From assembly GCA_010356995.1 (NCBI GenBank), contig ML996712.1:1-64000 (forward strand): a stretch of DNA of 64,000 bases. Direction: 5' to 3'. The notes under the pieces are model-generated. The model was not told where the DNA came from. It did no database searches and saw only the letters and a program-made list of their open reading frames with translations. Each line of letters opens with the position of its first letter. Positions within the stretch are counted from its first letter, which is position 1. The translations under genes and the position numbers were made by a program. Origin of the DNA: Trichodelitschia bisporula (lineage: Eukaryota; Ascomycota; Dothideomycetes; Phaeotrichales; Phaeotrichaceae). This document shows, in pieces, positions 5,530 to 47,959 of this stretch.

Positions 5530-5765
5530 AAATCCAGCTCTGGGCAGCACTCAGCCTAGAGACCCAGCTTGGGCAGCACCAAGCCTGGAGACCCAGCTTG
5601 GACAGCGCCCAATCTGAAAACTCGGCTTGGGCAGCACCCAGCCTGGAAACCCAGCTTGGGCAGCACCCAGCCTGAAAACTCGGCTCGGGCAGTGCTCAGC
5701 TTGGAAACTCTCCGGCTTGGGCAGCAGCGCTCAGCTGGAAAATCAGGTTCGGACGGCGCTCACTT
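5530..5765 (+). repeat. 29-bp minisatellite in the element's leader
   Basis: About seven head-to-tail units built on GGGCAGCACCCAGCCTGGAA followed by ACCCAGCTT, mostly 29 bp with one or two slightly longer. It lies between the primer-binding site and gag, so it is probably untranslated. Confidence 0.85.
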
Positions 5766-10531: not shown

Positions 10532-10835
10532 CACTCACCCGCTACACAGCAAACAGGCCACGGTCAGCAATCATCGCATCTCGTCCATGTCAGATACGGC
10601 CACTCACCAACTACACCAGCAACGAGGCCACGGTCAGCAATCATCGCATCTCGTTCATGTCAAGTGGGTCTACTTGCGCCCTAAATCAACCAATAAGCCA
10701 CGGTCAGCAATCATCGCATCGCGTCCATGTCACATAGGAGCACTAACGCGCTATATCAGCCAACAGGCCACGGTCAGCAATCATCGCATCTTGTCCATAT
10801 CAAGTAGGTCCGCTTACCTCCTACATCGGCACTCA
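10532..10835. repeat. 70-bp tandem array abutting the 3' LTR
   Basis: Four copies of a 70-bp unit. The conserved core GGCCACGGTCAGCAATCATC recurs with its first G at about 10556, 10626, 10696 and 10766, i.e. exact 70-bp spacing. The variable half of each unit begins CACTCACC- or CACTAACG-like. The first unit starts on the base after the LTR terminal A. Units differ at several positions. Confidence 0.88.
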
Positions 10836-34620: not shown

Positions 34621-35302
34621 TTGAGGGCGATTTTCTGGCGCTTTAGCGGGTTAGCGTAGATGATATCGGGATAGATGTATGAGTAGATGGGTTGACGACG
34701 TCTTGTGGTGATCTTGATGGTGTTCAGGGGGACTGGGAGTGGTGGTTGGCGAGGCATATGACTTAAAGACTCACAACCTGATTCTTTCACCTAGAATTCG
34801 AGTTGTTTAACAGTTGTTGCATCACCAGAGGTCCCGAGATCAACTTGGGCTTGTTGGGGGAATTGTCCAATTTTTCCTGATACTTTGCTCGGTTTAGGTT
34901 GTCTCCCAAAAAGGACCCCAAAGCACCCAACACGAACTTCACAACAACAGAAAATAGTCACAACACATCACGATTCACAATCTCGAACACAACAACAGAA
35001 AATAGTCACAACACATCACGATTCACAATCTCGAACAAGCGAAAGATGCATCCATTCTGGACCTTACGTAGTAAACCAGAAATGAGTAGAAAGACACCAA
35101 AACTCAACCACCATTCTAAACCCATAATCTTCGACTCCAAAAAAAAAAAACGACCAGAAAGCCACCAATCCTAAACCTCTATCTCCTAACTCCAAAAACG
35201 ATAGCAAGTCCAAAGAAAACGACAGCAACATGAACCAAAAATAACATATACCCGTGACTCATCACCCGCACACCAAAACACCCAATCTCCAAAATCCCCA
35301 CC
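34621..35302. other. Gene-free, locally AT-rich stretch
   Basis: From about 34890 the sequence becomes A/C-rich and unlike the GC-rich flanks; no gene supported. It marks the boundary between the core block and the repetitive accessory block. Confidence 0.5.
34941..35036. repeat. Perfect 48-bp tandem duplication
   Basis: Two adjacent identical copies, 34941..34988 and 34989..35036, each starting ACAACAACAGAAAATAGTCA and ending TCTCGAAC. No differences, so the duplication is young or conserved by slippage. Confidence 0.9.
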
Positions 35303-37354
35303 TCATGCTCCTCCCCAGCCCCAGCCAGTCTCCCCAGCGCAGGCACCTGGCACCGGGCGCGGCGGCGTACTCGGCGCCGTCATCAGCACACCCTCCATAC
35401 TCTCCGAAGTATCCATCTCCATCCCCGTCTCAACAGACAAGCGCGGCGGCGAGCCCGGCTCCGTAATCGGGCTATATGAAGGCCGTTCCGGCGTAGGCGG
35501 CGTCATGACCGGCTCGCCTTCCGTACTCTCCGACGAGCGCGGCTCCCTCACCCCGTCCTCAGGCTCAGCCGGCTCGCACCGCTCATCCCCCTGAGGACCA
35601 CCCAGCAGGTCAGAGTATTCGACGTCTGTATCCGGAAGGGCTGTCATTGGAAGGTCCGGGAACTCAGTCGTGCTCAGTGGCGCCGGCGCGGGTTCAAACA
35701 GGGGCGCATCGTCACGTAACCACGCGCGCTGCTCCAGAGTCTCCAAACCGGGCGGCGAGGCCGGGGCTGGCGGCCGAAGGCCCCCCACCTCCGTCATCTG
35801 CTGCGCAAAAGCCGGCGGGCAGCGCACCTCCGCTCCAACCGGCGGCGCCGGCTTCGTCCCTGCTACTTCCTGTGCGAAAGTGGCCGGCGGGGGCGCGATA
35901 CGCTCGAGCCGCACGACTTCGGCGAGGATGTCTTGCTTCTTTTTGCCGGTTGTTTTGTCATACATGGCCCAGAGGTGGTTGATGGTGGCTAGGAGCTCGG
36001 CGTTGAGGGTTGCGCGGGCTGAGGAGAGGACGGCGGCGGGGGGTGGGGCGAGCGCGGTCGGGGGACTGGAGCTGAGGGCCATAGTCGGGGAATTGGACGC
36101 TGAGAGCGAGTGGGGCTCCTGTGTGACTTGGGGCTCGACGATTGTGGGGCTTCGGGGTTCGGGTCCGGCGGTGGGAGCCGCTTCCGGGTTTTTGGGCTGC
36201 CGGTTGATTGCAAAGGCGATGAACGCCCGGGCAAGGAAGCGAATCCGTCGACCGGTGGCCAGAGTAATATTGTCGGATACGGTGGGGACGGGATCTGGGT
36301 TCGCGGCGGGGTGGATGTCATCGGCAACTATCTCTGCAGCGGTTTCGAGTTCATCAGCGAGCTGCAAAATGGTTTCAGCTCTCGACCATAAGTGATCCGT
36401 AGTGGGTGCTTCGACTATGCCCGCAAAGGCATCCGGTGCATCAGCCTCTGCGAGCCGGATAAATTTGTGGGCGGCCGCGGTGGCGCACTTGTAGAGGTCA
36501 TCGTCCATGCGAACCATGCTCCACAGCTTCTCAGACCCCATGCGTGCTTCCTGTTTCTGGGCGAAGAGAGCCGCTCGCGATTGCTCCAAGTTATTTGCTG
36601 CGAGATCTTCTGGCGTGGGCTGGCGTGTAGCTTGGATGTACTCCCTGACAATGCCGGCGACTCGCACTGCGGAGTAGCCCCAATAGGCCTTGGTTGGGGT
36701 GCGAGGGGGCACCCGGAAAACTTCCCGGCAAGTAGCCAGCAATTCGTTGTGGATGTTCTGTGCAGCCGTGCATTTTCTGGCCCAGTTGTCATCGTCGCTA
36801 AGTATAATTGTGCGCGTGACGCCCCATGCATTCTCTTCTGCGACCTCGAGGCACTTCCTCGTGACGGTGGCGAGGAAGGCGTGAATGAGCTTTTGGACCT
36901 GGGCCATGTCGTCTGGCGTGTCCTCCTCGGATGTGGGCGGCCACCGGCCGGTGGGCGGATTGCTTGCCGTCTCGTTCATGAACCGGAGGAACGTGTTGGC
37001 ATATTCCATGGCCATGATGCGGGCAGCTCTGGCACGGGCAATGCTTGGACCGGAACCAGTGGCATTGACGATTTCCCGGGCGGCGGCTATAAATATCCGT
37101 TGGACACCTCGGACAGCCTCATACAGCACTTCCCCACCCGCGGGGGTGAGAACCACGCCGAGTTGCCAGAGCTCATTGGGTGTGCACCGGCCCGCAGTTA
37201 AGACGCACTCTCGAGCAAAGTCGGCGGCATAGACGTGTTTGAGAGCCACGGAGCGAGCTAAGACGGTGAGGATTTCCTGAAGAGGAAGCGGAGGTTCGAC
37301 TCCTCCACGCAAGTGGTTCCCCTCACTCCCTGGTCCCGCCTCTGCCGTCTGCAT
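35303..37354 (-). CDS. Hypothetical protein, 683 aa, helical N-terminal half and disordered C-terminal half
   Basis: The first in-frame ATG (MQTAEAGPGSEG) is at 37354, only 20 bp past the stop of the 2984-codon ORF; the frame itself is open back to 37393. Residues ~25-360 look globular and helical with spaced Cys and Trp (RECVLTAGRCTPNELWQLGV, ATVTRKCLEVAEENAWGV, SDDDNWARKCTAAQNIHNEL). Residues ~360-470 hold another helix (ELLATINHLWAMYDKTTGKK). The rest is Pro/Glu/Ser-rich with repeated TPPTPERP-like and EPGSPP motifs. No membrane segment. I recognise no family. It is either an independent gene or the 3' part of the giant gene; see the junction finding. Confidence 0.6.
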   Translation of the reverse strand: MQTAEAGPGSEGNHLRGGVEPPLPLQEILTVLARSVALKHVYAADFARECVLTAGRCTPNELWQLGVVLTPAGGEVLYEAVRGVQRIFIAAAREIVNATGSGPSIARARAARIMAMEYANTFLRFMNETASNPPTGRWPPTSEEDTPDDMAQVQKLIHAFLATVTRKCLEVAEENAWGVTRTIILSDDDNWARKCTAAQNIHNELLATCREVFRVPPRTPTKAYWGYSAVRVAGIVREYIQATRQPTPEDLAANNLEQSRAALFAQKQEARMGSEKLWSMVRMDDDLYKCATAAAHKFIRLAEADAPDAFAGIVEAPTTDHLWSRAETILQLADELETAAEIVADDIHPAANPDPVPTVSDNITLATGRRIRFLARAFIAFAINRQPKNPEAAPTAGPEPRSPTIVEPQVTQEPHSLSASNSPTMALSSSPPTALAPPPAAVLSSARATLNAELLATINHLWAMYDKTTGKKKQDILAEVVRLERIAPPPATFAQEVAGTKPAPPVGAEVRCPPAFAQQMTEVGGLRPPAPASPPGLETLEQRAWLRDDAPLFEPAPAPLSTTEFPDLPMTALPDTDVEYSDLLGGPQGDERCEPAEPEDGVREPRSSESTEGEPVMTPPTPERPSYSPITEPGSPPRLSVETGMEMDTSESMEGVLMTAPSTPPRPVPGACAGETGWGWGGA

Positions 37355-37373
37355 TGCAGGCAATCGGTTTCCC

Positions 37374-40300
37374 TCACCGCCTAGTCCCGTCACTGACGTC
37401 GATTGTCAGCGCAGGTTTCTTCACCTCGCCCGACTCCCTCGGAACCTCGGGATCCATCTCACCTGGCGAATGTTTCGGCGGAGGCAGAGAGCTCGAGGGC
37501 ATGTGCACCATGGCGACTATGGGCCGCAAAAGCTCTGGATTCGGCTCGGCCAGGGGCGAGACCGGCAATTTGAGCGGCGAGATTGCGCTATCGTTTGACT
37601 CGCCCTCGGTTTTGTTGTTGTCATCGGCGCTTTCAACCTTGTCCGCTGGCGCTGCGTACGCTTTGGCGGGGTCCAAAACGCCGCAGTTCGGGTAAAACGG
37701 CGGGTAAATGTTCCACTCGCTTTCAGAGATCTCCCACGGCGGGTCCTCAGAAGAAGGGGACAGTTCCGAGTGGATTGCTGGGTTGGTGTTCGGGATTTGT
37801 ATCGGATCCGGGACGGAAGTCGGATCCGGGATTTTTGCCGAGGCCGGGTTGGAAGTCGGATTCGGAACCGAGACACGGATAGTCTCCGGCTTCGGCTTCG
37901 GCTCCACAACCAGCTTCACCCCCTCGGCCAAGACCACCGTCTCGCCCGCCGCTTCCCTCTCCCTCATCTCACGCCGCTTCCGTTGCAACTCATCCACCAC
38001 CTTGGTTACATACTTCTTAGCCTTCTCTTCCGTGGCCGCCTCCAATGCCCGCCATTCCGCTTCCTTCTTAAGCCGTTTCTGGTACCTCGCCCTCGCAAGC
38101 TCTTCATATTCACTCTCCGCCTTCCACTCCGCCACAACCTTGTCCCTCGCCTGTGCACCCGTGCGCTCCAGCTCGTTCACGTCGATGTGCTTCCCCTGCT
38201 TAACCGTCGTGACGACGTACCTCGAGCGCGCAACCAAAATGGCATCCTCGATTGCAGGTCGCAAGGCCTCTAACGTCCTGAGCCACTTGGCATGCTCGGC
38301 CGAACAGGCTTCGCAAGTGCACGACTTTGGACGCGACAACGGCTCCAGCGGATCGGCGGGGCTTCCTTGCATCGCCAAATCATACAGCATCTGTTCCATA
38401 CGCATCGCGTGTGCTGTCTCCTTTGGGTCGAGGAGCGTCTCCACGTCGACCTCCACATTGGGGTTCAAACCCTCTTTCTCCCTCTCTTCCCTGTACGCCT
38501 TCAGAGCCTTGATTTGGCGTAAAAGCTGGCTAGCGGGGAGCCCATACGGCCACTCCTTTGGCTGACGTTGGCCCAGGCCTGCATCAGGCATGGCCTTCTT
38601 AGCATTTTCCTCGGTCGGGTCGGGGATCATCGCTGCTTTGGCTTTCGCAAGGGCGTCGGAAAGAATTTTTGTCTGCTCCCTCAAACGCTGAATTTTACGT
38701 GGAAGTTCGCCGGGGACGAGCACAGGAGGCGAGTTATGCGACTGACGTCCATCCTTGACCGACATCTTGTTAAGACGCTTGGCCGGCTGTGCTTTGTCCG
38801 CATCAGCCAGGGCCTTCTCAGCGTCCGCCTTTGCCATATAGGCCTCAAAAACCTCCCGCGACTCGATAGCACTGCCCGTCTGCAGGTGCTTTTCCAGTCC
38901 CGTCTTCTCATCCTCACTCAGGTCGGAGTCCCTGTTCGCCGCGTCTATATCTTCTTTCTCTTCGCGTGTCAACATTTTGTCCCCCTGCCCCGCTACCTTA
39001 GCAAGAACACGCTTCGCCGCAGCTAGCTCCTTCGTGCGGATCAGGCCCCGAATGCACTTATCCGACAACACCTTAGGGTCCTTCGGTCCAGCGCTCATTT
39101 CCCCGTCCAAACCTGGAGCCACGCCAGGCGCAACGGGGCCCGGCGCGTGTCTATTCATCGTCAAACGAGGTCCCCCATCGGACCCCTTCGAGCCTATCTC
39201 TGGGCTCGGGGCCGACTCTCGCGCCGTGCGAGAGTCATCTTTGAAAGACATGCCCACATAATGTCGATCGACATTAGAATCGTTAGACGACAGCGACACG
39301 TCCCGCGTGGGCGGGGGTGCGTGCAGGCCGGTGGGGAGCTGAGGAATGTCGGCTAACGACGGCCGCGGCTGCGAGGGTGAATGACGGCGATACCCGTGTT
39401 TCGGGGCGAAGAAAGACAGGGCCTCGTAGCCACCGTCGGTGCTTGAAGGGCTGGCCGAGGAGGACTGAGATCGCAAAGGGGGCGGTGGGGGGGCCCTCTT
39501 CTGCAGCCACACAATCTCGGGCGCACCGGAATCTAACCCAATAATCTTGAACTGCGGCTCTGGGTATACGAGACTCCTTGAAGCCGGCGATAGTGCCCCC
39601 GCGGAGGAAGATGCGTGGGACTCATTCGACCACTCCGACTCCGGTGTGGATTCAAAATCCGCTTCTGGTTCGGGAGCAGCCTCGCGCACCGCGCGCTGGT
39701 GGTCAGACATATCGTAGCTGCGCTGGGTTTCTTCACTCTGGCGGTCTGACATCGTCGGTCGATTCCGGGTATCAATGTACGCGCGCATCAGCCGCATGGC
39801 ATTCGACTGGTCGCTCTGCGAGGACGACGGGGGTTGATCATCGGCGTTTGGGGACCAGAGACGCGTTGAAGGCATTTGTAGCTCTACAGCGGATGTAGGC
39901 AACGTCACAGGCGACAGCGGCCGGGATGGAAGCCGCATTGGGGAAGAAGGGGGTTGCCACGCGGTCGACCATTCCGACTCCGGTGTGGATTCGTTACCCT
40001 CCTCGTCCGGTTCGGGTGCAGCCTTGCGCTCCGCGTACTGGCGGTCAAACATGTCACGGCTGCGCTGTGTTTCTTCCTGCAGGCGCCCGGGCATTATGAG
40101 TCGATTCTGGGTATCAAAGTACTCCTCCGTCATGCGCCTGGCATCTGCCCAGTCGCTCTGCGAGGACGACGGGGGTTGGTCATCGGCGTTTGGCTCCTTG
40201 GGCGAGAGCGCAGGCGAGGCGATTGTCTGGCCGCTCAGTGAGGACGACCGGGGGTGTTCGTAGGCGTTCGGCTCCTTGGGCGGGAGCGCTGGCAAGGCTG

Positions 40301-43300
40301 TGATATTTTCCTCGGAGCTGTTGACAACTGTTTGACTGAGCTCGGATGCTATTTGACTGAGCTCGGAGTCACTCAACTCGGAGCCGTTGGTAGGACTTAG
40401 CGTCGGATCCAGTGTGGCTTTTGCCACCGGCAGCTGCTGCTCCTTCGGGGCCGCGAGTGGCACCGGGTCCCGTTTGGGTCCTCCAAACGCCGCCAGCATC
40501 TCAGAAGCGGGCGGGTGATGAATCAACGAACTGGGAAGCGTGGGAGCCTTTTGCGCCTCATCACTGGCTGACAGGAGCTCAAAAGGACCAGAGCTCTTGA
40601 CATTCAGTTCCTGCTGCTCCTCCAGGACCGCCGGCCGCGCAGAAGTCGACCACTGCGACTCCGACATGGAAGGGAAATGCGACCTAGCCGGCGACCTCGC
40701 ATACTCAGCTTTCTCATCTGAATCCTCGGTGGCCACGCGCTCCCCGTGCACCTGCTGGACCTTGGTGGCAAGGTCCGTGGCGGGTACAGCATGTGCTGGA
40801 GCAATCTCTTTACGGTCGCAAGGAGCCACCGGAGTCGGCGTCGGGTCGAACCCTGCTTCTGCCAACATCGATGAGAAGGACCGCGGCCCGATGGGGCCCG
40901 AGGAGCCCTCCTTCCGATGATCGGCAACCTTCCCCTGGAAAAATGCAGAGGAGAACATGCCGGTCATGCCCGACTGCAGGATTTCCCGCGCGGGCTGCTC
41001 GACCGGGGATGCGGGACGAGCGTCAGCCGGCGCGCTCGAGCTCTTCACATGTTCCGCCGGCACGCTCGGGTGCTTTGGCTTCTCACACTCACACGCCCGT
41101 TTGGCCTCCGCACGCGCTTCCCTAACCCCTACAAGCGCTTCCCTAGCCTCCTCACGCGCTTTCCCAGCCACCTCGAGTGCGAGCTTCGCATCCTCGCGCG
41201 CTTGCCGAACGACGTCGGCAATCCGCGTCATACATTGAACATGTGTCGATCCGCTCTCTTGGGGATTGCTAAGGGACGAGGGATTCGCCTCCGGCTCGCA
41301 TTCGCCTGCCGCCGACGACGGCGCGAGCTGCTGAGTGGGCTGGAGGGGTTGCGTGGCATGCTGGGGTGAAGAAAGTGGCGATGACCACGGGTAAGGCCGC
41401 GGCGAGGCCGGGTCCGGGACTCCCTGTGGGAGCGGTGGGTGCTGGGACGTGGGGCGTGCCTGAGGCTGCGGGGGAGGAATAACGGAAACGGGAACGGGGA
41501 AGTTGCTGAGCGGACCCGAAGTGATGGTTACCGGTGACAGCTGCTGGTGCGACGACGTGGGCCGCGCGAGAGGTTGTGTGGGAGAAACAGCGGGAGAGGG
41601 TGACTCGCTGCGCGGAATCGAAATTATGGTGACCGGCGGCAGCGGCTGGTATGGGGAATCGGGATGCACTTGAGGCTGCCAGGAAGATGTAGTGACGAGT
41701 TTGAGCCTGTCAAACGGATCAGATACTACGGCCACCGGTGACCGTGACTGGTACGAGGGCTTGGGATGTGCTTGAGGCTGCGCGGGAGGTACAGCGGGAG
41801 AAGGTGACTCGGGGGGCGGAATCGAGACCATGGTAACCGGTGGCAACGGCTGGTAAGGAGACTCGGGACGCACTTGAGGCTGCCAAGATGATGTAGTGAC
41901 GAGCGGGACCTTGCCGAGCAGAACCGAGTCCACGCCGCGCGGAGCCAACTCCACGGTCACGGGTGGCAGCGGCTGGTCCGGGGCCGTGGGACGTGCCGGC
42001 GGCTGCGGGGCAGATACAGCAGCAGAGGGGACCTTGCGGGGCGGGAGTGGACCCGATGTCACGGTCACCGGCGTCCCAAACGGTGCTCCGGACGCAGCGG
42101 CGCTGTTAGCCTCCTTGATAAAGTTCTCAGGCGACACAGCTAGGCGTTTCTGCGGGAGGGCTTGGAGGCCTATGGTATTTTTCTCCACTGCCCAGGACGC
42201 AGCGGCGGACGTGAAATGCGGGGATTTCTTCAGGAGGGCTTTGACATGTTCATCCATTGCCGCAGCCCGGGACCCAGCGGTGCTGTGAGCCTCCTTGACA
42301 AGGTCCTTCGGCGACAGGGGTTTCTTCGGGAGGGCGGGGAGGTCCTTTGGTGTCTCCACTGCCGCAGCCCGGGACGCGGCGGCGCTCTGAGCCTCCTTGA
42401 CAAGGTCCTCGGGCGTCAGAGGCCGGTGTTTCGTCTTCGGGGGGGATTTGAGGCCCATCGATCGTTTCTCCACGACCGCAGCCCGCCTCTTTTCCCATGC
42501 CTCCGCTGTCTTTTGCCATGCCTCCTCTACGGCGCTCTTGGTCTTCGTCGGCGGCTGCACTGCCTCCGCGGCAGCGCCGTTAACCTTCGCTGGTGTTTTC
42601 GTAACCGGAGGCTGCGTGGTCGTTGGTACTTCTGCTATGACATTATTGACCTTTTTCTGGGTCTCTCGAACAATAATGTTCATCTTTGCCCGTGTCTCCG
42701 CCACGGCACTGTCCATCTGAGCCTGCGACCACCGAGCGATACTGCGCATCTCCGCCCGTGACTCCGCAGTCTTATCCTTGTGCATTTTCTGTGACACCGT
42801 GACGACCTCGTTGACTTGCGCCGCGACGACACCATCGATTTTGACCATTGACTCCACAGAAATGCCCTTAATATTTGTCGGCTGTTGCACTGCCTCCGCT
42901 GCGGCGCCGTTGACCTCCGCCGGTATTTTCGTAACCGGAGTCTGCGTGTCCGTTGGCATCTCAACTTCGATATCATTGACCTTTGCCTGGGTCTCCCGAA
43001 CGATACTGTTCATCTGTACCAGTGTCTCCGCAGAGACACTGTCGGTCTTCGCCCAGAACTCCGCAGTGATACTCTCGATCTTCGCCTTCGTCTCCGCAGA
43101 CACTTCCTGAGTTAACTGTGACACCGTAACGACGTCGTTGGTTTGCGCCGCGACGACACCGCCAATTTTCACTAGTGACTCCACACAAATGTCCTTGAGC
43201 TTTGTCTGCTGCTGCACTGCAGGAGCTGCGGTGTCGTTGGTCTTTGCTGGCGATTTCGTAACCGGAGTCTGCGGCATCGTTGGCACCCCTGCTACGATAC

Positions 43301-46300
43301 CATCGAGCTTTGCCTGTGTCTCTCGAACGATACTGTCGATCGTCGCCTGCATCTCTCCAGCGGTTGTCTTGATGGCCGCCCATGACTGCTCAATAACATT
43401 GTTGATCTCCGCGTCTGTCTCATCAACGATGCTGTCGATCTGCGCCTGCATCTCCCTAGCCATACCGTTGCTCTCTGCTGGCAACTGCGTAAGGATATGG
43501 TTGAGCTCCGCCATTGAATCGTCCCAGATACCGTCAATATTCTCACGAGACCGCACAACTCCATCGTTGATCTTCATCTTCGTCCCCACAATGAGACCGT
43601 TGATCTTCGACCGCGACTCCGCAGCGACACCGTTAATCTTCGCCTGTAACGCTACAGGAAGGCCTTGGACAGTCATCTGCTGTTGTAATTCAGGAGGTGC
43701 GATGTCGTAGAGCTTCCCCTGGGTCTCCGCAACGAGACCATTAATCTTCGACTGCGCCTCCGTAACGATGCCCACAAACTTCGCCTGCATGTCTGCAAGC
43801 ATATCTTTGTCCGTCGCCCGTATCTCTTCGCATAGATCGTCGACCGTCACCTGAATCTCCGGAGGGAAACCGTCGGTCACCGGTGCTTCGGTAACAGGCG
43901 TCGGCGTCCGCGCCGGTGTCTCCGCTACAACACGGTTGATCGTCGCCGGCGGTTGCACTTCTGGAGCAGCGGTGCGATTGACCTTCGTCGACGGTTGCAC
44001 AACTGGAGCTGTAGTGCGGTGGATCTCCACCGGTGCTTTCGTAATCGCAGCGTGTTTCTCCGCCGGTGCCTCCGCTGTAGCGCCGTAGAACTTCGCCAGC
44101 GGCTGGCCTTCTGATGCCGCGATACCATCGATCTTCGCCTGAGTCTCCCGAACGATGCCGTTGATCGTGGCCTGTGTGTCTGTAGTTATATCGTTGATCA
44201 TCTCCTGCGTCCCAGCAACCAAACCGTTGATCGACTCCTGTGTCTCGACAACCAACCCGTTTATGGCGGCCTGTGCCTTTATAGCCAAACCATTGATCGC
44301 CGTCTGCATCTGCGGAACGATAGTATTGGGCACCAGTGCTTTGGTAATGGGCGTCTGCGTCTGCACTGTTGTCCCCGCTACAACACGGTTGATCGCCGCC
44401 GGCGGTTGCACTGCTGGAGCAGCGGTGAGACTGACCTTCGCGTGTGTCTCGGCAACCATACGGTTGATCGTGGCCTGTGTGTCTATAGTTGTATCGTGGA
44501 TCATCTCCTGTGTCCCTGTAACTAAACCGTTGATCGACTCTTGTGTCTTGACAACCAAACCGTTTATCGCGGCCTGTGCCTTTACGACCAAACCGTTGAT
44601 CGCCGTCTGCATCTGCGGAACGATAGCATTGGGCACCGGTGCTCTGGTAATAGGCGTCTGCGTCTGCGCCAGTGTCTCCGCTACAACAGGGTTGATCGTC
44701 GCCGACGGTTGCACTGCTGGAGCAGCGGTGCCGTCGGTCTTCGCTGGCGGCGGCCATGCCTCCACTGAGGGGCCGTTCATTTTCGCCTGCATCTCCGCAA
44801 CGATGCCATTGATGTTCGCCTGCGTCTCGGAAACCATACGGCCGATCGTCGCCTGTAGCTTCGTAACGAAACCCTTAATCGTCGCCTGTGTTTCTGCAAC
44901 TCTATCGGTGATCGTCAACCGTATCGTGAAAACGATATCACCGATTTCCGCCTGTGTCTCGCAAAGGAAGCGGTGGAGCTTGGCTTGTGTCTCCGCCACG
45001 ATTCCCTTGATCTTGGCCTGCGGCTGCGTTGCTGGAGCTACGCTGCCGTTGAGCTTCGCCTCTGCTTCCGCAGCGATACCATCGATGTTCGCCTGTGTGG
45101 TCGCAAGCATACCAAAGGTCGTCGCATATACCTTCGCAAGGCTACCATCAATCTTCGCCTGAACCTCTGCAACTTCACCGCGGATCGTCGCCCGTGTCTC
45201 TGCAACGATACCGTTAATCGTTGCCAGCAACTCCGCAACGACACCCTTGATCGTCGCCCACATCACTGTAACGATGGCGTCGAACACCGGCGGTGCGGTG
45301 CCGTTGAGCTTCGCTTGTGTCTCCGCAACGATACCATTGATCTTCGTCTGCGTTCCTGTAACCAGACCATTGATCTTCGCTTGTGTCTCCCGAACGATAG
45401 CGTTGATCGAGACCTGTGTGTCAGTAGCCAAATCGTTCGTCTTGTCGTGCGTATGTGCAACGATACCTTTGAACGTCGACTGTATCCCTGCAACCAAAGC
45501 GTTGGCTGTCGCCTGCACCTTTGCAATGATGTCGTCGACCTTCGCCGGCGATTGCACTGCCGGAGCTGCGGTGCGGTGAATCCCCGCCGGTGCTTTCGTA
45601 ACCGTAGCGTGCGTCTCCGCAGGTGGCACCGATACGCTACCGTTGGTCTTCGCCGGCGATTGCACAGTCGGAGCAGCGGTGCCGTAGATCCTCGACGGTG
45701 CCTTCTCAACCGCGCCCATCTCCGCCGCCTCCCCCGCACCACCCCTCACAGGAAGCCCAAACTCCATCGGCGCCCGCCACGGCACGCCCTCCCCCGCGCG
45801 CCGCGCCAGCCCATCCTCCCACTCAATCTGCCTCCCCAACCTCATCCGCAAAAAATCCTTCTGCTCCTTCAGCTTGTCCGCATACATAATCAAATCATCA
45901 CACCACGCCGGCCACGACGCATCCTTCTGCTCCTTCAGCTTGTCTGCATACATAATCAAATCATCACACCACGCCGGCCAAGGCGCGTAGATATTGTCCA
46001 TGGATTCGTACATCATGGCCTCGAGTGCCGGGGAAGGGTTTTGCAGAAGGAAGCGCGCGGGGAGGCGCTCGGAGCGGGAGGAGCGGCGGCAAGGGGAGGG
46101 GCGGGGGGGGGGGGCTGCCAGTGGAGTGGTGAGCGCGCTTCGATCCGGGGCGAGGGACGCGTTTCGGCTTGGGGCTGGAGGGGTGTTTCTGAAGAGTGAG
46201 CGCTCGAGGTTGGCGATACGGAGGCCGGGTGAGGCGGGGTGATGTCGTCCTGTTTGAGTGCTGGCCATGGCGCTGGGAACGGGGCGGGCTGGCGCGGGGG

Positions 46301-46328
46301 TGTGGGGTTTGGCGGCGGGGAGGGGCAT
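37374..46328 (-). CDS. Giant multi-repeat protein, 2984 codons, unknown family
   Basis: An unbroken frame from ATG 46328 to TGA at 37374. Order: Pro-rich N-terminus; a 22-residue duplication (WPAWCDDLIMYADKLKEQKD) at ~158-200; 11-residue repeats close to INGIVAETQAK at ~260-1240; three LTPEDLVKEA-type repeats at ~1300-1406; Pro-rich repeats of ~68 residues (SSWQPQVRPESPYQPLPPV) at ~1430-1650; Ser/Glu-rich region with repeated TPESEWS and PNADDQPPSSSQSD; a helical, charged C-terminal ~700 residues with a CTCEACSAEH cluster near 2671 and long KRLKKEAEWRALEAATEEKA-type helices. No signal peptide or membrane helix seen. The start may lie further upstream, spliced from the frame at 46329-47412. 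Function unknown; a structural, coiled or membrane-surface protein is inferred from the repeats. Length without stops in GC-rich repeats is strong but not absolute evidence of coding. Confidence 0.65.
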   Translation of the reverse strand: MPLPAAKPHTPAPARPVPSAMASTQTGRHHPASPGLRIANLERSLFRNTPPAPSRNASLAPDRSALTTPLAAPPPRPSPCRRSSRSERLPARFLLQNPSPALEAMMYESMDNIYAPWPAWCDDLIMYADKLKEQKDASWPAWCDDLIMYADKLKEQKDFLRMRLGRQIEWEDGLARRAGEGVPWRAPMEFGLPVRGGAGEAAEMGAVEKAPSRIYGTAAPTVQSPAKTNGSVSVPPAETHATVTKAPAGIHRTAAPAVQSPAKVDDIIAKVQATANALVAGIQSTFKGIVAHTHDKTNDLATDTQVSINAIVRETQAKINGLVTGTQTKINGIVAETQAKLNGTAPPVFDAIVTVMWATIKGVVAELLATINGIVAETRATIRGEVAEVQAKIDGSLAKVYATTFGMLATTQANIDGIAAEAEAKLNGSVAPATQPQAKIKGIVAETQAKLHRFLCETQAEIGDIVFTIRLTITDRVAETQATIKGFVTKLQATIGRMVSETQANINGIVAEMQAKMNGPSVEAWPPPAKTDGTAAPAVQPSATINPVVAETLAQTQTPITRAPVPNAIVPQMQTAINGLVVKAQAAINGLVVKTQESINGLVTGTQEMIHDTTIDTQATINRMVAETHAKVSLTAAPAVQPPAAINRVVAGTTVQTQTPITKALVPNTIVPQMQTAINGLAIKAQAAINGLVVETQESINGLVAGTQEMINDITTDTQATINGIVRETQAKIDGIAASEGQPLAKFYGATAEAPAEKHAAITKAPVEIHRTTAPVVQPSTKVNRTAAPEVQPPATINRVVAETPARTPTPVTEAPVTDGFPPEIQVTVDDLCEEIRATDKDMLADMQAKFVGIVTEAQSKINGLVAETQGKLYDIAPPELQQQMTVQGLPVALQAKINGVAAESRSKINGLIVGTKMKINDGVVRSRENIDGIWDDSMAELNHILTQLPAESNGMAREMQAQIDSIVDETDAEINNVIEQSWAAIKTTAGEMQATIDSIVRETQAKLDGIVAGVPTMPQTPVTKSPAKTNDTAAPAVQQQTKLKDICVESLVKIGGVVAAQTNDVVTVSQLTQEVSAETKAKIESITAEFWAKTDSVSAETLVQMNSIVRETQAKVNDIEVEMPTDTQTPVTKIPAEVNGAAAEAVQQPTNIKGISVESMVKIDGVVAAQVNEVVTVSQKMHKDKTAESRAEMRSIARWSQAQMDSAVAETRAKMNIIVRETQKKVNNVIAEVPTTTQPPVTKTPAKVNGAAAEAVQPPTKTKSAVEEAWQKTAEAWEKRRAAVVEKRSMGLKSPPKTKHRPLTPEDLVKEAQSAAASRAAAVETPKDLPALPKKPLSPKDLVKEAHSTAGSRAAAMDEHVKALLKKSPHFTSAAASWAVEKNTIGLQALPQKRLAVSPENFIKEANSAAASGAPFGTPVTVTSGPLPPRKVPSAAVSAPQPPARPTAPDQPLPPVTVELAPRGVDSVLLGKVPLVTTSSWQPQVRPESPYQPLPPVTMVSIPPPESPSPAVPPAQPQAHPKPSYQSRSPVAVVSDPFDRLKLVTTSSWQPQVHPDSPYQPLPPVTIISIPRSESPSPAVSPTQPLARPTSSHQQLSPVTITSGPLSNFPVPVSVIPPPQPQARPTSQHPPLPQGVPDPASPRPYPWSSPLSSPQHATQPLQPTQQLAPSSAAGECEPEANPSSLSNPQESGSTHVQCMTRIADVVRQAREDAKLALEVAGKAREEAREALVGVREARAEAKRACECEKPKHPSVPAEHVKSSSAPADARPASPVEQPAREILQSGMTGMFSSAFFQGKVADHRKEGSSGPIGPRSFSSMLAEAGFDPTPTPVAPCDRKEIAPAHAVPATDLATKVQQVHGERVATEDSDEKAEYARSPARSHFPSMSESQWSTSARPAVLEEQQELNVKSSGPFELLSASDEAQKAPTLPSSLIHHPPASEMLAAFGGPKRDPVPLAAPKEQQLPVAKATLDPTLSPTNGSELSDSELSQIASELSQTVVNSSEENITALPALPPKEPNAYEHPRSSSLSGQTIASPALSPKEPNADDQPPSSSQSDWADARRMTEEYFDTQNRLIMPGRLQEETQRSRDMFDRQYAERKAAPEPDEEGNESTPESEWSTAWQPPSSPMRLPSRPLSPVTLPTSAVELQMPSTRLWSPNADDQPPSSSQSDQSNAMRLMRAYIDTRNRPTMSDRQSEETQRSYDMSDHQRAVREAAPEPEADFESTPESEWSNESHASSSAGALSPASRSLVYPEPQFKIIGLDSGAPEIVWLQKRAPPPPPLRSQSSSASPSSTDGGYEALSFFAPKHGYRRHSPSQPRPSLADIPQLPTGLHAPPPTRDVSLSSNDSNVDRHYVGMSFKDDSRTARESAPSPEIGSKGSDGGPRLTMNRHAPGPVAPGVAPGLDGEMSAGPKDPKVLSDKCIRGLIRTKELAAAKRVLAKVAGQGDKMLTREEKEDIDAANRDSDLSEDEKTGLEKHLQTGSAIESREVFEAYMAKADAEKALADADKAQPAKRLNKMSVKDGRQSHNSPPVLVPGELPRKIQRLREQTKILSDALAKAKAAMIPDPTEENAKKAMPDAGLGQRQPKEWPYGLPASQLLRQIKALKAYREEREKEGLNPNVEVDVETLLDPKETAHAMRMEQMLYDLAMQGSPADPLEPLSRPKSCTCEACSAEHAKWLRTLEALRPAIEDAILVARSRYVVTTVKQGKHIDVNELERTGAQARDKVVAEWKAESEYEELARARYQKRLKKEAEWRALEAATEEKAKKYVTKVVDELQRKRREMREREAAGETVVLAEGVKLVVEPKPKPETIRVSVPNPTSNPASAKIPDPTSVPDPIQIPNTNPAIHSELSPSSEDPPWEISESEWNIYPPFYPNCGVLDPAKAYAAPADKVESADDNNKTEGESNDSAISPLKLPVSPLAEPNPELLRPIVAMVHMPSSSLPPPKHSPGEMDPEVPRESGEVKKPALTIDVSDGTRR
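39600..40290 (-). repeat. 339-bp in-frame duplication in the giant ORF
   Basis: The segment read on + as CCACTCCGACTCCGGTGTGG (39630) recurs near 39969 as CCATTCCGACTCCGGTGTGG, about 339 bp (113 codons) away. Both copies encode PEPxxxxxSTPESEWS after an ETQRS(R/Y)DM block. A shorter module encoding PNADDQPPSSSQSD is present near 39812 and 40162 with a diverged third copy near 40233. Confidence 0.8.
41500..41905 (-). repeat. 204-bp (68-codon) Pro-rich tandem repeat in the giant ORF
   Basis: Two close copies encoding LVTTSSWQPQV(R/H)P then YQPLPPVT, with anchors at 41629 and 41833 exactly 204 bp apart. More diverged copies of the PxQPxARP..LPPVT pattern continue on both sides from about 41400 to 42060. 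Confidence 0.8.
42111..42425 (-). repeat. LTPEDLVKEA-type repeats in the giant ORF
   Basis: Three copies encode LTPEDLVKEAQSAAASRAA, LSPKDLVKEAHSTAGSRAA and VSPENFIKEANSAAASGAP, separated by 40-60 residues of Lys/Pro-rich linker. Confidence 0.8.
42610..45545 (-). repeat. 33-bp minisatellite coding an 11-residue (hendecad) repeat
   Basis: Nearly 3 kb of 33-bp units in frame. Well-aligned unit translations include INGLVTGTQTK, INGIVAETQAK, IKGIVAETQAK, IKGFVTKLQAT, INGLVVKAQAA. Hydrophobic residues fall at positions 1, 4, 5 and usually Thr at 8, i.e. a, d, e, h of a hendecad. Pro-free runs of 80-115 residues are separated by Ala/Pro-rich linkers (TAAPAVQPPAT-like). A higher-order ~95-residue duplication is visible between about 44120 and 44700 (both copies carry QTQTPIT then NxIVPQMQTAING). 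Because 33 is divisible by three, long antisense frames also stay open. Confidence 0.88.
45856..45987 (-). repeat. 66-bp in-frame tandem duplication at the N-terminus of the giant ORF
   Basis: 45856..45921 and 45922..45987 are near-identical, each encoding WPAWCDDLIMYADKLKEQKD. The copies differ at only a few bases near the junction and one inside, so the event is recent. Confidence 0.93.
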
Positions 46329-47412
46329 GCCGGGAGGGGAGTGATGATCGTGGGCTTGGGGGGAGGCGCTGGGCCATTAACTTTGGTCCCCGTGGGGCTG
46401 GACCGGTGATGCAGGGGTTTTAGCGGGACGGCGGGGGGAGAGGCGCGAGCGGTTGGGGCAGATGCGTGTGGACGCGGAGAGCGGTGCGCGGGCAACCAGG
46501 GCGGGGTGTTGTGGTGCAACCCAACAACGACAGCGGCGCTGGAGAGGACTTGGAAGTCGAATGGGATGCGGGGGATTTTGAAGGCGGGGGGGGGGACGTT
46601 CGATTCGGTTGGGTCGACGGTGGTTGCCTCTGTTGATGGGGCAGATTCGGTGGGGCTGGGGGACAAATGGTGGGAGCTGTTGAAGCCGCTGTCCGAAGCG
46701 GGGGCGCAGTTCTCCGGGTCGGGGGATGGCGCGAAGGCGATGTGCTGATAGAACGCTTTGTGGACCCCACGGCTGAGAAGGTGCTGGTACGGATTTCTGT
46801 TGGAAGATGGGGGTTGGGGGAAGCGGCTGGTGAAGAGCAGGCCGCTTGGGGAGTGAATGAAGGCCGGGGGTCCGCGGAGCCTAGGGGGGAGTGGAACATG
46901 GCTCGTGGAAGCGCTGCGAGCCCGGGGTTTGCCGGATCTGTTCATGGTCTCGGTGCTGGATTCCGTCTTGACTTCTTCCTCAGCGGGAAAGAGAGGGGCG
47001 TGTCCGGCGGATCCGTTCATGGCATTGGTGCCGAATTCTGTCTCAACCGCGTCTCCGGCGGGGAACGGGAGGGACGAGGAGGAGTCGGGGGTCATTGGGT
47101 TGGACATGGTGGGCGAAGAGTCCGGTGTGAGTGATAAAACGCAACGGGCGTTATCAGCGGGTGTCCGGTGTTGCGGGTGTGGACACGGGGGTAAACGGAT
47201 GTGGTAAGAATGGCCGATATGGTTTGAGATGACAAGCGGTGGTGGTGCGTTCGTGGTTCGGGCGAGACGAGGGTTGGGGGATGGAGGGCGTTTTGTGTTC
47301 ACCATTTCTCCCATCGTACTCAAGAGAAGGGCTCTGGCTGCTGTAGGTACTGCTGAAGGAGCAGCTGTGCTACTGGAAGGGGTGGAGTGTGTCGCGGGAG
47401 GAGCTCCTAGGA
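46329..47412 (-). CDS. Possible 5' exon(s) of the giant gene or separate Pro/Ser-rich ORF
   Basis: A minus-strand frame stays open from 47434 to 46013 and overlaps the first 316 bases of the 2984-codon ORF in another frame. It encodes a Pro/Ser/Thr-rich sequence with in-frame ATGs at 47314 (MGEMVNTKRPP) and 47107 (MSNPMTPDSSSS). The region after 47107 carries two related blocks (AVETEFGTNAMNGSAGHAPL and EVKTESSTETMNRSGK). An intron somewhere in 46013-46328 could fuse it to the giant ORF. I could not fix the splice sites, and low complexity leaves open that the frame is fortuitous. Confidence 0.35.
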
Positions 47413-47872
47413 CTGGAGAAGTGACGAAGGACACTTAGCATTATCGTAGGTAACATTAAGCAGCAGTGCCACTCACCTCTAGAGAAGGGGCTCTGACTGC
47501 TGTAGCAACAACTGAAGGAGCGGCTATGCTGCTGGAAGGCGTGGCGTGAGGCTTGGGAAGAGCAGTTAAGACTAGAGAAGTGACAAAGGATACTTAGCAC
47601 TGTCGTAGGTAACATTAAGCAGCACTGGCACTCACCTCTGTCCCTTCGTCCTTTATCACACCGACACCCGGTGCTCTAGAGAAGGGGCTCTGGCTGTTGT
47701 AGCAACGACTGAATAAGCAGCTGTGCTGCTGGAAGGCGTGGAGTGTGTCGCTGGAGGAGCAGTTATGCTGCAGAAGGCGGAGCGTGAGTCTGGGAGGAGC
47801 ACCTGGGACTAGAGAGGTGCGGAAGGACACTTAGCACTATCGTAGGTAGCATTAAGTAGCACTGCCACTCAC
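47413..47872 (-). repeat. Three tandem modules, each with a 64-nt GT..AG intron-like block
   Basis: On the minus strand the blocks 47809..47872, 47572..47635 and 47413..47476 each start GTGAGTG after an AGAG(G)-type exon end, contain CTACGA(T/C)A and CTAAGT, and end TCTAG or TCCAG. All three are exactly 64 nt. The intervening pieces (173 and 95 nt, and the sequence downstream of the third) are related to each other and would encode variants of THSTPSSSTAAPS in one frame. They look like a repeated exon-intron unit upstream of the giant ORF. Confidence 0.75.
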
Positions 47873-47959
47873 CTCTGTCCATTTGTGTTTTATCACACGT
47901 GCACCCGGTACCCGTTGATTTACGCTTACTGGGTCCAGGCTCCCTTCACGCTCGCGGCT

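Follow-up and report, generated by a model that had tools for sequence, protein, structure and literature searches.

Organization of the repeat locus

The window analysed here is a 64,000-nucleotide stretch of DNA from Trichodelitschia bisporula (Dothideomycetes; assembly GCA_010356995.1, contig ML996712.1, positions 1 to 64,000 of the forward strand). Its minus strand carries a main open reading frame (ORF; P0001), accompanied on the same strand by ORFs P0002 and P0003, and the main ORF encodes a long array of 11-residue (hendecad) units that is divided by proline into rods. The features of the array, with amino acid (aa) positions counted in the main ORF, are as follows:

37374..46328, minus strand: main ORF (P0001), 2,984 codons without an internal stop; an in-frame stop precedes it at 46379, and its first ATG is at 46328
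42510..45689, minus strand: hendecad repeat region, aa 214-1273, about 85 units near INGIVAETQAK, delimited by profile and lag identity
45294..45545, minus strand: Pro-free rod 1, aa 262-345 (84 aa), a predicted AlphaFold2 helix (model residues 2-80)
45036..45287, minus strand: Pro-free rod 2, aa 348-431 (84 aa), a predicted AlphaFold2 helix (model residues 85-166)
44772..45020, minus strand: Pro-free rod 3, aa 437-519 (83 aa), a predicted AlphaFold2 helix (model residues 173-257)
44103..44615, minus strand: Pro-free rods 4 and 5, aa 572-637 and 673-742, largely inside a 303-bp tandem duplication (44160-44730)
43284..43859, minus strand: Pro-free rods 6 to 8, aa 824-877, 892-949 and 951-1015
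42627..43220, minus strand: Pro-free rods 9 and 10, aa 1037-1124 and 1151-1234, inside a 327-bp tandem array (42547-43336)

The ATG at 46328 is a putative start. With a codon-usage model derived from the ORFs of the RNA polymerase, TBCD and CLP1, the main ORF's own frame outscored the other five in almost every 300-base window within the ORF; the exceptions were the window 41650-41351 and those at both ORF ends, and the score fell below zero over the Pro-rich stretch at about 42100-41200. We rejected plus-strand coding, as the antisense ORFs, which reach 408 aa, are piecewise and mostly lower in codon-usage score. Two of these, of 335 aa (44155-45162) and 408 aa (44973-46199), lie within or across the repeat and are probably by-products of its periodic codons.

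Extent and coding status of the 11-residue repeat

The original prediction, made from the nucleotide letters, described roughly 980 residues of INGIVAETQAK-like 11-mers between 42610 and 45545. This span corresponds to aa 262-1240 (979 aa), with degenerate units reaching aa 214-1273, and the description held: identity between residues 11 positions apart was 0.243 versus 0.079 expected from composition, followed by 0.212 at lag 22, 0.173 at lag 33 and a further peak at lag 44. An iterated profile placed 106 units in the whole ORF (1353 bits in total). Of these, 85 start within aa 201-1275; 72 of the 85 score at least 9 bits, and 55 of the 72 are free of Pro. Residue shuffles of aa 201-1300 still gave 49-59 weak units and 425-478 bits (10 of 30 shuffles), so the bare unit count proves little. 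Ten Pro-free tracts of at least 40 aa were delimited, with lengths of 54-88 residues rather than the predicted 80-115. No second copy of the repeat was detected elsewhere in the window by tblastn, which did detect the positive control.

Finer analyses used 52 of the 85 units, hand-chosen by register from contiguous tracts, with 33 linker, isolated or end units dropped. These 52 units differ from the 33-bp consensus at a mean of 9.0 of 33 bases, and none contains a stop versus 10.5-11.4 expected under neutral drift, in a frame picked for being open. Zero stops were reached in none of 2,000 neutral simulations at each of three transition weights (minimum 1-3). In the other five frames, 38, 38, 47, 18 and 49 of the 52 units are stop-free.

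A substitution test of whether core positions stay hydrophobic gave z = 3.6 in the ORF frame, 4.7 in the +1 frame and 2.7 in one antisense frame; on unit sets selected by score, z was 3.3 (55 units) and 2.2 (85 units). We rejected this test as proof of selection and do not count it, because the +1 and antisense frames pass as well.

Additional duplications occur in the same ORF. A near-perfect 66-bp tandem duplication at 45855-45980 repeats WPAWCDDLIMYADKLKEQKD, a 78-bp duplication lies in the C-terminal half (40154-40298), and more internal protein duplications are found around aa 2000-2240.

Helical periodicity and the amphipathic face

Hydrophobic moments were computed directly on the HeliQuest scale, not with HeliQuest. 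At 98.2 degrees, the moment exceeded that of most residue shuffles in all ten Pro-free tracts (equalled by 0 to 45 of 5,000 shuffles), and a scan from 60 to 180 degrees located the best angle at 97.5-99.5 degrees in nine of the ten, the signature of an 11/3 helix, and at 164.5 degrees in the tenth (aa 892-949). The amphipathic 11/3 design with long, Pro-punctuated rods that had been proposed for this protein is supported. When any angle was allowed, shuffles equalled tract 1037-1124 in 108, tract 892-949 in 42 and tract 1151-1234 in 27 of 1,000 cases, and the other seven tracts in 0-10 of 1,000. Rods 9 and 10 have the weakest 11/3 moments among the rods.

Comparison of the six frames revealed the highest 11/3 moment in the ORF frame (0.347 versus 0.068-0.192). 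Over 414 Pro-free 33-residue windows the mean moment was 0.327, and the composition of aa 264-1275 is 0.42 hydrophobic, 0.02 aromatic and 0.19 charged. A beta-solenoid reading of the 11-mer was rejected, given a profile moment of 0.320 at 98 degrees versus 0.200 at 164 degrees.

Position by position, large hydrophobic residues (ILVMFWYC) occupy a in 46, d in 45 and e in 41 of the 52 units, with Thr or Ser at h in 32, much as the original prediction describes for unit positions 1, 4, 5 and 8. The a/d/e/h face comprises 208 residues: 148 large hydrophobic, 43 Thr/Ser, 13 Ala, 1 Gly and only 3 charged. Gly is found at c in 26 units, Ala is favoured at f and j, and amides concentrate at b (25) and i (32). 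Acidic residues lie mainly at g (32 of 71). Lys falls at k in 20 of 34 cases and at g or k in 26, placing it on one flank. An N[x]6Q pair is present in the consensus and in 18 units. The repeat, its open coding frame, its 11/3 periodicity and its nearly charge-free hydrophobic face are all directly observed.

Predicted structure and database resemblance

AlphaFold2, run without an alignment on aa 262-531, predicted three long helices coinciding with the Pro-free tracts (best model: predicted local distance difference test (pLDDT) 83, predicted template modelling score (pTM) 0.66). Foldseek returned both chains of the designed three-helix bundle 4tql as top PDB matches at 8-9% identity (chain B: E = 6.9e-4, TM scores 0.58 and 0.65; chain A: E = 1.0e-3, TM scores 0.61 and 0.70). 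Judged from pTM and Foldseek, the three rods are predicted to pack as a bundle in this single-sequence model. It shares three long helices with 4tql, an artificial protein whose helices are about 80 residues long.

Pfam searches revealed Apolipoprotein (PF01442) as the top match, at 39.4 bits for the whole ORF, where aa 369-517 formed the best stretch, and 42.5 bits for aa 262-531, below the cut-off of 90; the second match on aa 262-531 was ApoLp-III (PF07464), at 26.4 bits and likewise below its cut-off (36.3). The reversed sequence of aa 262-531 still scored 32.1 bits with Apolipoprotein and also drew sub-cut-off matches to a baculovirus envelope protein and rubber elongation factor. Since the match largely survives reversal, it points to a shared pattern and is not evidence of descent. 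Two controls that kept a/d/e/h and shuffled the other positions retained 24.3 and 22.5 bits; the match was gone after a residue shuffle and after reduced-moment and near-zero-moment permutations (one each).

A desiccation or stress protectant of the late embryogenesis abundant (LEA) group 3 type, which would lack order in water and turn helical on drying, had also been suggested, and the 11-mer periodicity and T/Q/A/K/E-rich helices are in its favour. LEA proteins, however, are strongly hydrophilic, whereas the repeat has three large aliphatic residues per 11 and a grand average of hydropathy (GRAVY) of -0.06, no LEA family appeared among Pfam matches to E = 10, and the repeat is embedded in a giant multi-region protein. 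LEA group 3 membership was rejected on profile and hydropathy, and we regard such a protective role as very improbable.

Other searches returned little. A PDB sequence search at E = 1 yielded nothing for P0001 or P0002, while an eightfold-consensus query drew 17 weak PDB matches (best E = 0.11), including ATP synthase b, apoA-IV, apoE and acetyl xylan esterase. PHROGs gave two weak matches of unassigned function (best 7.6e-05), and NCBIfam gave none. Six short repeat peptides, the consensus not among them, found no match in IMG/VR or GTDB, and P0002 found none in GTDB, these being viral and prokaryote collections that are uninformative on fungi. The repeat was not found in phages by tblastn with the low-complexity filter on. 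Among the papers listed, with subscription papers largely outside and fungal perilipins judged from partial texts, no fungal protein of such design was found. A Sclerotinia splicing paper reports an Apolipoprotein Pfam match together with PH and DUF3450 in one gene.

Proposed lipid-responsive bundles versus alternative readings

Two further regions of the main ORF enter the interpretation:

41259..42461, minus strand: Pro-rich region by composition, aa 1290-1690 (20.7% Pro), probably disordered
37929..39056, minus strand: charged stretch, aa 2425-2800 (36.8% charged over aa 2425-2560, 37.8% over aa 2600-2800), probably helical judging from its sequence

We tentatively favour, with less than even confidence, a giant protein whose middle third forms about ten Pro-hinged 3-11 helices of 54-88 residues, which would form bundles in solution and unpack on contact with a lipid surface, a design most likely evolved independently. 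Away from lipid, the rods would bundle by packing their a/d/e/h faces together; at a lipid droplet or a comparable surface, these bundles would come apart and leave the helices lying flat next to one another. Ile, Val and Leu would then sit in the lipid, with Asn (b) and Gln (i) along one flank and Glu (g) and Lys (k) along the other making lateral contacts, a packing scheme modelled on what has been proposed for perilipin-4 and the exchangeable apolipoproteins. The C-terminal two thirds of the protein, Pro-rich and charged, might act as a tether or recruit partners. Both lipid binding and the tether role are what we infer; the three long helices and their packing are model predictions.

Several observations weigh against this reading, beginning with those on selective constraint. 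The ratio of non-synonymous to synonymous differences (pN/pS) over all pairs of the 52 units is 0.92, and the other frames give 0.79-0.95 (0.79 in the +1 frame), so that the ORF frame is not the lowest of the six. Permutation of the 11 positions of the mean profile (72 units) gave an equal or larger moment in 22,361 of 300,000 cases (7.5%); the 11/3 periodicity expected to exceed that of shuffles therefore holds up against most residue shuffles in all ten tracts and only marginally against reordered positions. An equal-moment permutation of aa 262-531 (one) lost the Apolipoprotein match, which is thus not a readout of amphipathicity alone and depends on how hydrophobic and polar positions are arranged, beyond the moment.

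The weak constraint would suit a fast-evolving 33-bp expansion of little specific function, in which a chance-amphipathic unit multiplied within a disordered region and was tolerated as open and soluble. Third codon positions are no freer than first (variability 0.440 versus 0.439), the ratio of non-synonymous to synonymous substitution rates (dN/dS) in eight internal duplicate pairs is 0.58-0.72 in the three most alike and 0.72 to 2.6 in the other five, and the equally amphipathic permutations and the unspecific substitution test fit this explanation too. It has difficulty, however, with the absence of stops (in a frame chosen as open) and with a hydrophobic face that stays nearly charge-free despite the divergence of the units from their consensus, and we consider it unlikely. 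The data suggest selection for amphipathicity, which is not proven because residue constraint is weak and 7.5% of position orders are equally amphipathic.

The next points concern protein-protein packing. Positions a, d, e and h are the canonical core of a hendecad coiled coil, and the face described above could equally be such a core. A permanent scaffold or tether is nearly as likely as lipid-openable bundles: the rods would form stable hendecad bundles or coiled coils, within or between molecules, as a spectrin-type chain that spaces partners bound by the terminal parts, with no lipid involved. The first three rods, 84, 84 and 83 residues long and joined by short Pro turns, suit antiparallel bundling (lengths among the remaining seven range from 54 to 88), the modelled pTM and 4tql match point the same way, and the charged C-terminal stretch and the existence of giant fungal tethers such as leashin (PMC2690989, PMC5345055) add to the case. 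Lower Pfam matches of aa 262-531 are to coiled-coil and other helical families.

A very stable coil, on the other hand, is disfavoured by a core position h that is mostly Thr or Ser and by Gly at c in half of the units (26 of 52); the repeat is 19% charged versus about 37% in the protein's own C-terminal stretch, and both top-ranking Pfam matches are to apolipoproteins that bind lipid. We slightly favour the lipid-openable bundle for its low charge, the Thr at h, the Gly at c and the matches to lipid-protein profiles. Pointing the other way are the negative net charge (-22 over 979 aa), the spread of Arg, with all basic residues falling at c, g and k in 30 and at b, f and i in 22 of 54 cases and so not one-sided, and the AlphaFold2 result, whose five models span mean pLDDT 83.0 to 66.5. 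The AlphaFold2 result itself fits lipid coat and coiled-coil scaffold alike. Both models have the same helices; what sets them apart is the contact partner of the hydrophobic face. Should the protein instead be a natural chain of hendecad bundles, it would be a natural counterpart of long designed helical bundles.

Comparison with known systems

Exchangeable apolipoproteins are soluble bundles that open on lipid, and they are short and secreted. Like A1, A4 and E of this class and apolipophorin III, the present protein has tandem 11/3 amphipathic helices broken by Pro; unlike them it is giant, and its profile scores are sub-cut-off. It shares the hydrophobic a/d/e/h core of hendecad coiled coils, but with mostly Thr or Ser at h.

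Human perilipin-4 (Plin4) offers a parallel of similar length, and what follows on it draws on two reports (PMC5889406, PMC8064757). Its helix is described as exceeding other known amphipathic helices that target organelles by an order of magnitude in length. Reported moments are 0.257 for Plin4, 0.30 for synuclein, 0.35 for Plin3 and 0.39 for apoA-I, and the moment and composition of the present repeat fall inside the span of these four, which supports the predicted likeness to 11-mer lipid-coating helices. Shared with Plin4 are about 1,000 residues of 11-mers suited to a 3-11 helix (here a predicted one), a low moment, few aromatics, richness in Thr, Val and Ala, Lys mostly on one flank, and the N[x]6Q pair, on which droplet targeting by Plin4 depends. 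This last likeness is weak and possibly coincidental, as N and Q stand 7 apart about one time in ten by chance in an 11-mer.

The differences from Plin4 also count against a lipid coat. Plin4 has a 33-mer higher-order unit and 29 repeats without insertions, whereas here the unit is the 11-mer and Pro linkers intervene. Plin4 is net positive with basic residues on one side, has far more Lys than Arg and far more Asp than Glu; the present repeat is net negative, carries Arg on both sides and prefers Glu over Asp (68 versus 41). A net-negative Plin4 mutant lost droplet targeting unless hydrophobicity was raised (PMC5889406, PMC8064757). The Plin4 helix reportedly stays unfolded in plain buffer and becomes helical only when lipid or trifluoroethanol is present.

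No perilipin family appeared among the Pfam matches to E = 10 for P0001, P0002 or P0003, and perilipin family membership was rejected on that ground. The more specific proposal of a perilipin-4-like giant fungal lipid-surface coat, independently evolved, in which some 85 units would be zipped together by amide and Glu/Lys flanks and Pro-hinged rods would rebundle off lipid with a long tether attached, is in our judgement improbable. If true, it would provide an unrelated fungal coat of Plin4 length with a similar amide pair and opposite net charge, and hence a convergence test of which features (length, polar-face order, charge) are needed.

By 19-residue Kyte-Doolittle mean, no transmembrane segment was found near the C-terminus (P0002 best 1.08); the ORF maximum of 1.71, compared with the usual transmembrane mark of 1.6, lies at aa 351-369 inside the amphipathic repeat. 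The absence of a C-terminal transmembrane segment and a different repeat composition led us to reject membership in leashin (LAH), the Woronin-body tether of filamentous ascomycetes, which resembles the present protein in being giant and fungal with a repetitive middle and complex ends. LAH repeats are acidic and rich in Pro, Glu, Leu and Ser, the Neurospora protein has a charge of -1088, and Lah has a C-terminal transmembrane segment (PMC2690989, PMC5345055).

Gene structure, neighbours and flanking repeats

Candidate extensions of the gene on either side of the main ORF are the following:

37393..37462, minus strand: predicted 70-nt intron, a splice-motif candidate (GTGAGA ... CTGAC ... CAG)
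35303..37392, minus strand: probable last exon within ORF P0002, from codon score and the predicted junction
46013..47434, minus strand: ORF P0003, a possible upstream exon with no good joining intron

Removal of the predicted intron would eliminate the stop and join P0002 in frame, so that the protein is perhaps 3651 aa long; three further acceptors score equally with the same donor. A structure model of 36134-37354 was all-helical and poor (mean pLDDT 48). The codon score of P0003 is weakly coding-like, and in places a plus-strand frame does as well. Intron candidates for a P0003-to-P0001 junction were sought, none of them convincing; a frameshift in the C-run near 46595 is a speculative possibility.

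Neighbouring genes in the window encode a mitochondrial RNA polymerase, TBCD, Trs85, a WD40 protein and CLP1. Against PDB, the polymerase matched the yeast chain 6ymv at 736 bits (next 483), and CLP1 matched the human chain 8hmy at 205.7 bits, ahead of yeast 2npi and its kin at 126.5. Judged by these two matches alone, a fungal source is likely rather than certain, the polymerase being the one that points to fungi.

Further repeats lie outside the main ORF. Just upstream of the gene, 47319-47900 holds tandem units of about 159 bp that by eye resemble an exon copied together with its intron (GTGAGT ... TCTCTAG); they may be duplicated 5' exons or what is left of a mobile element. The 3' flank carries a perfect 48-bp tandem duplication (34940-35037), and minisatellites of about 70 bp and of 29/58 bp occur at 10532-10831 and 5530-5726, respectively.

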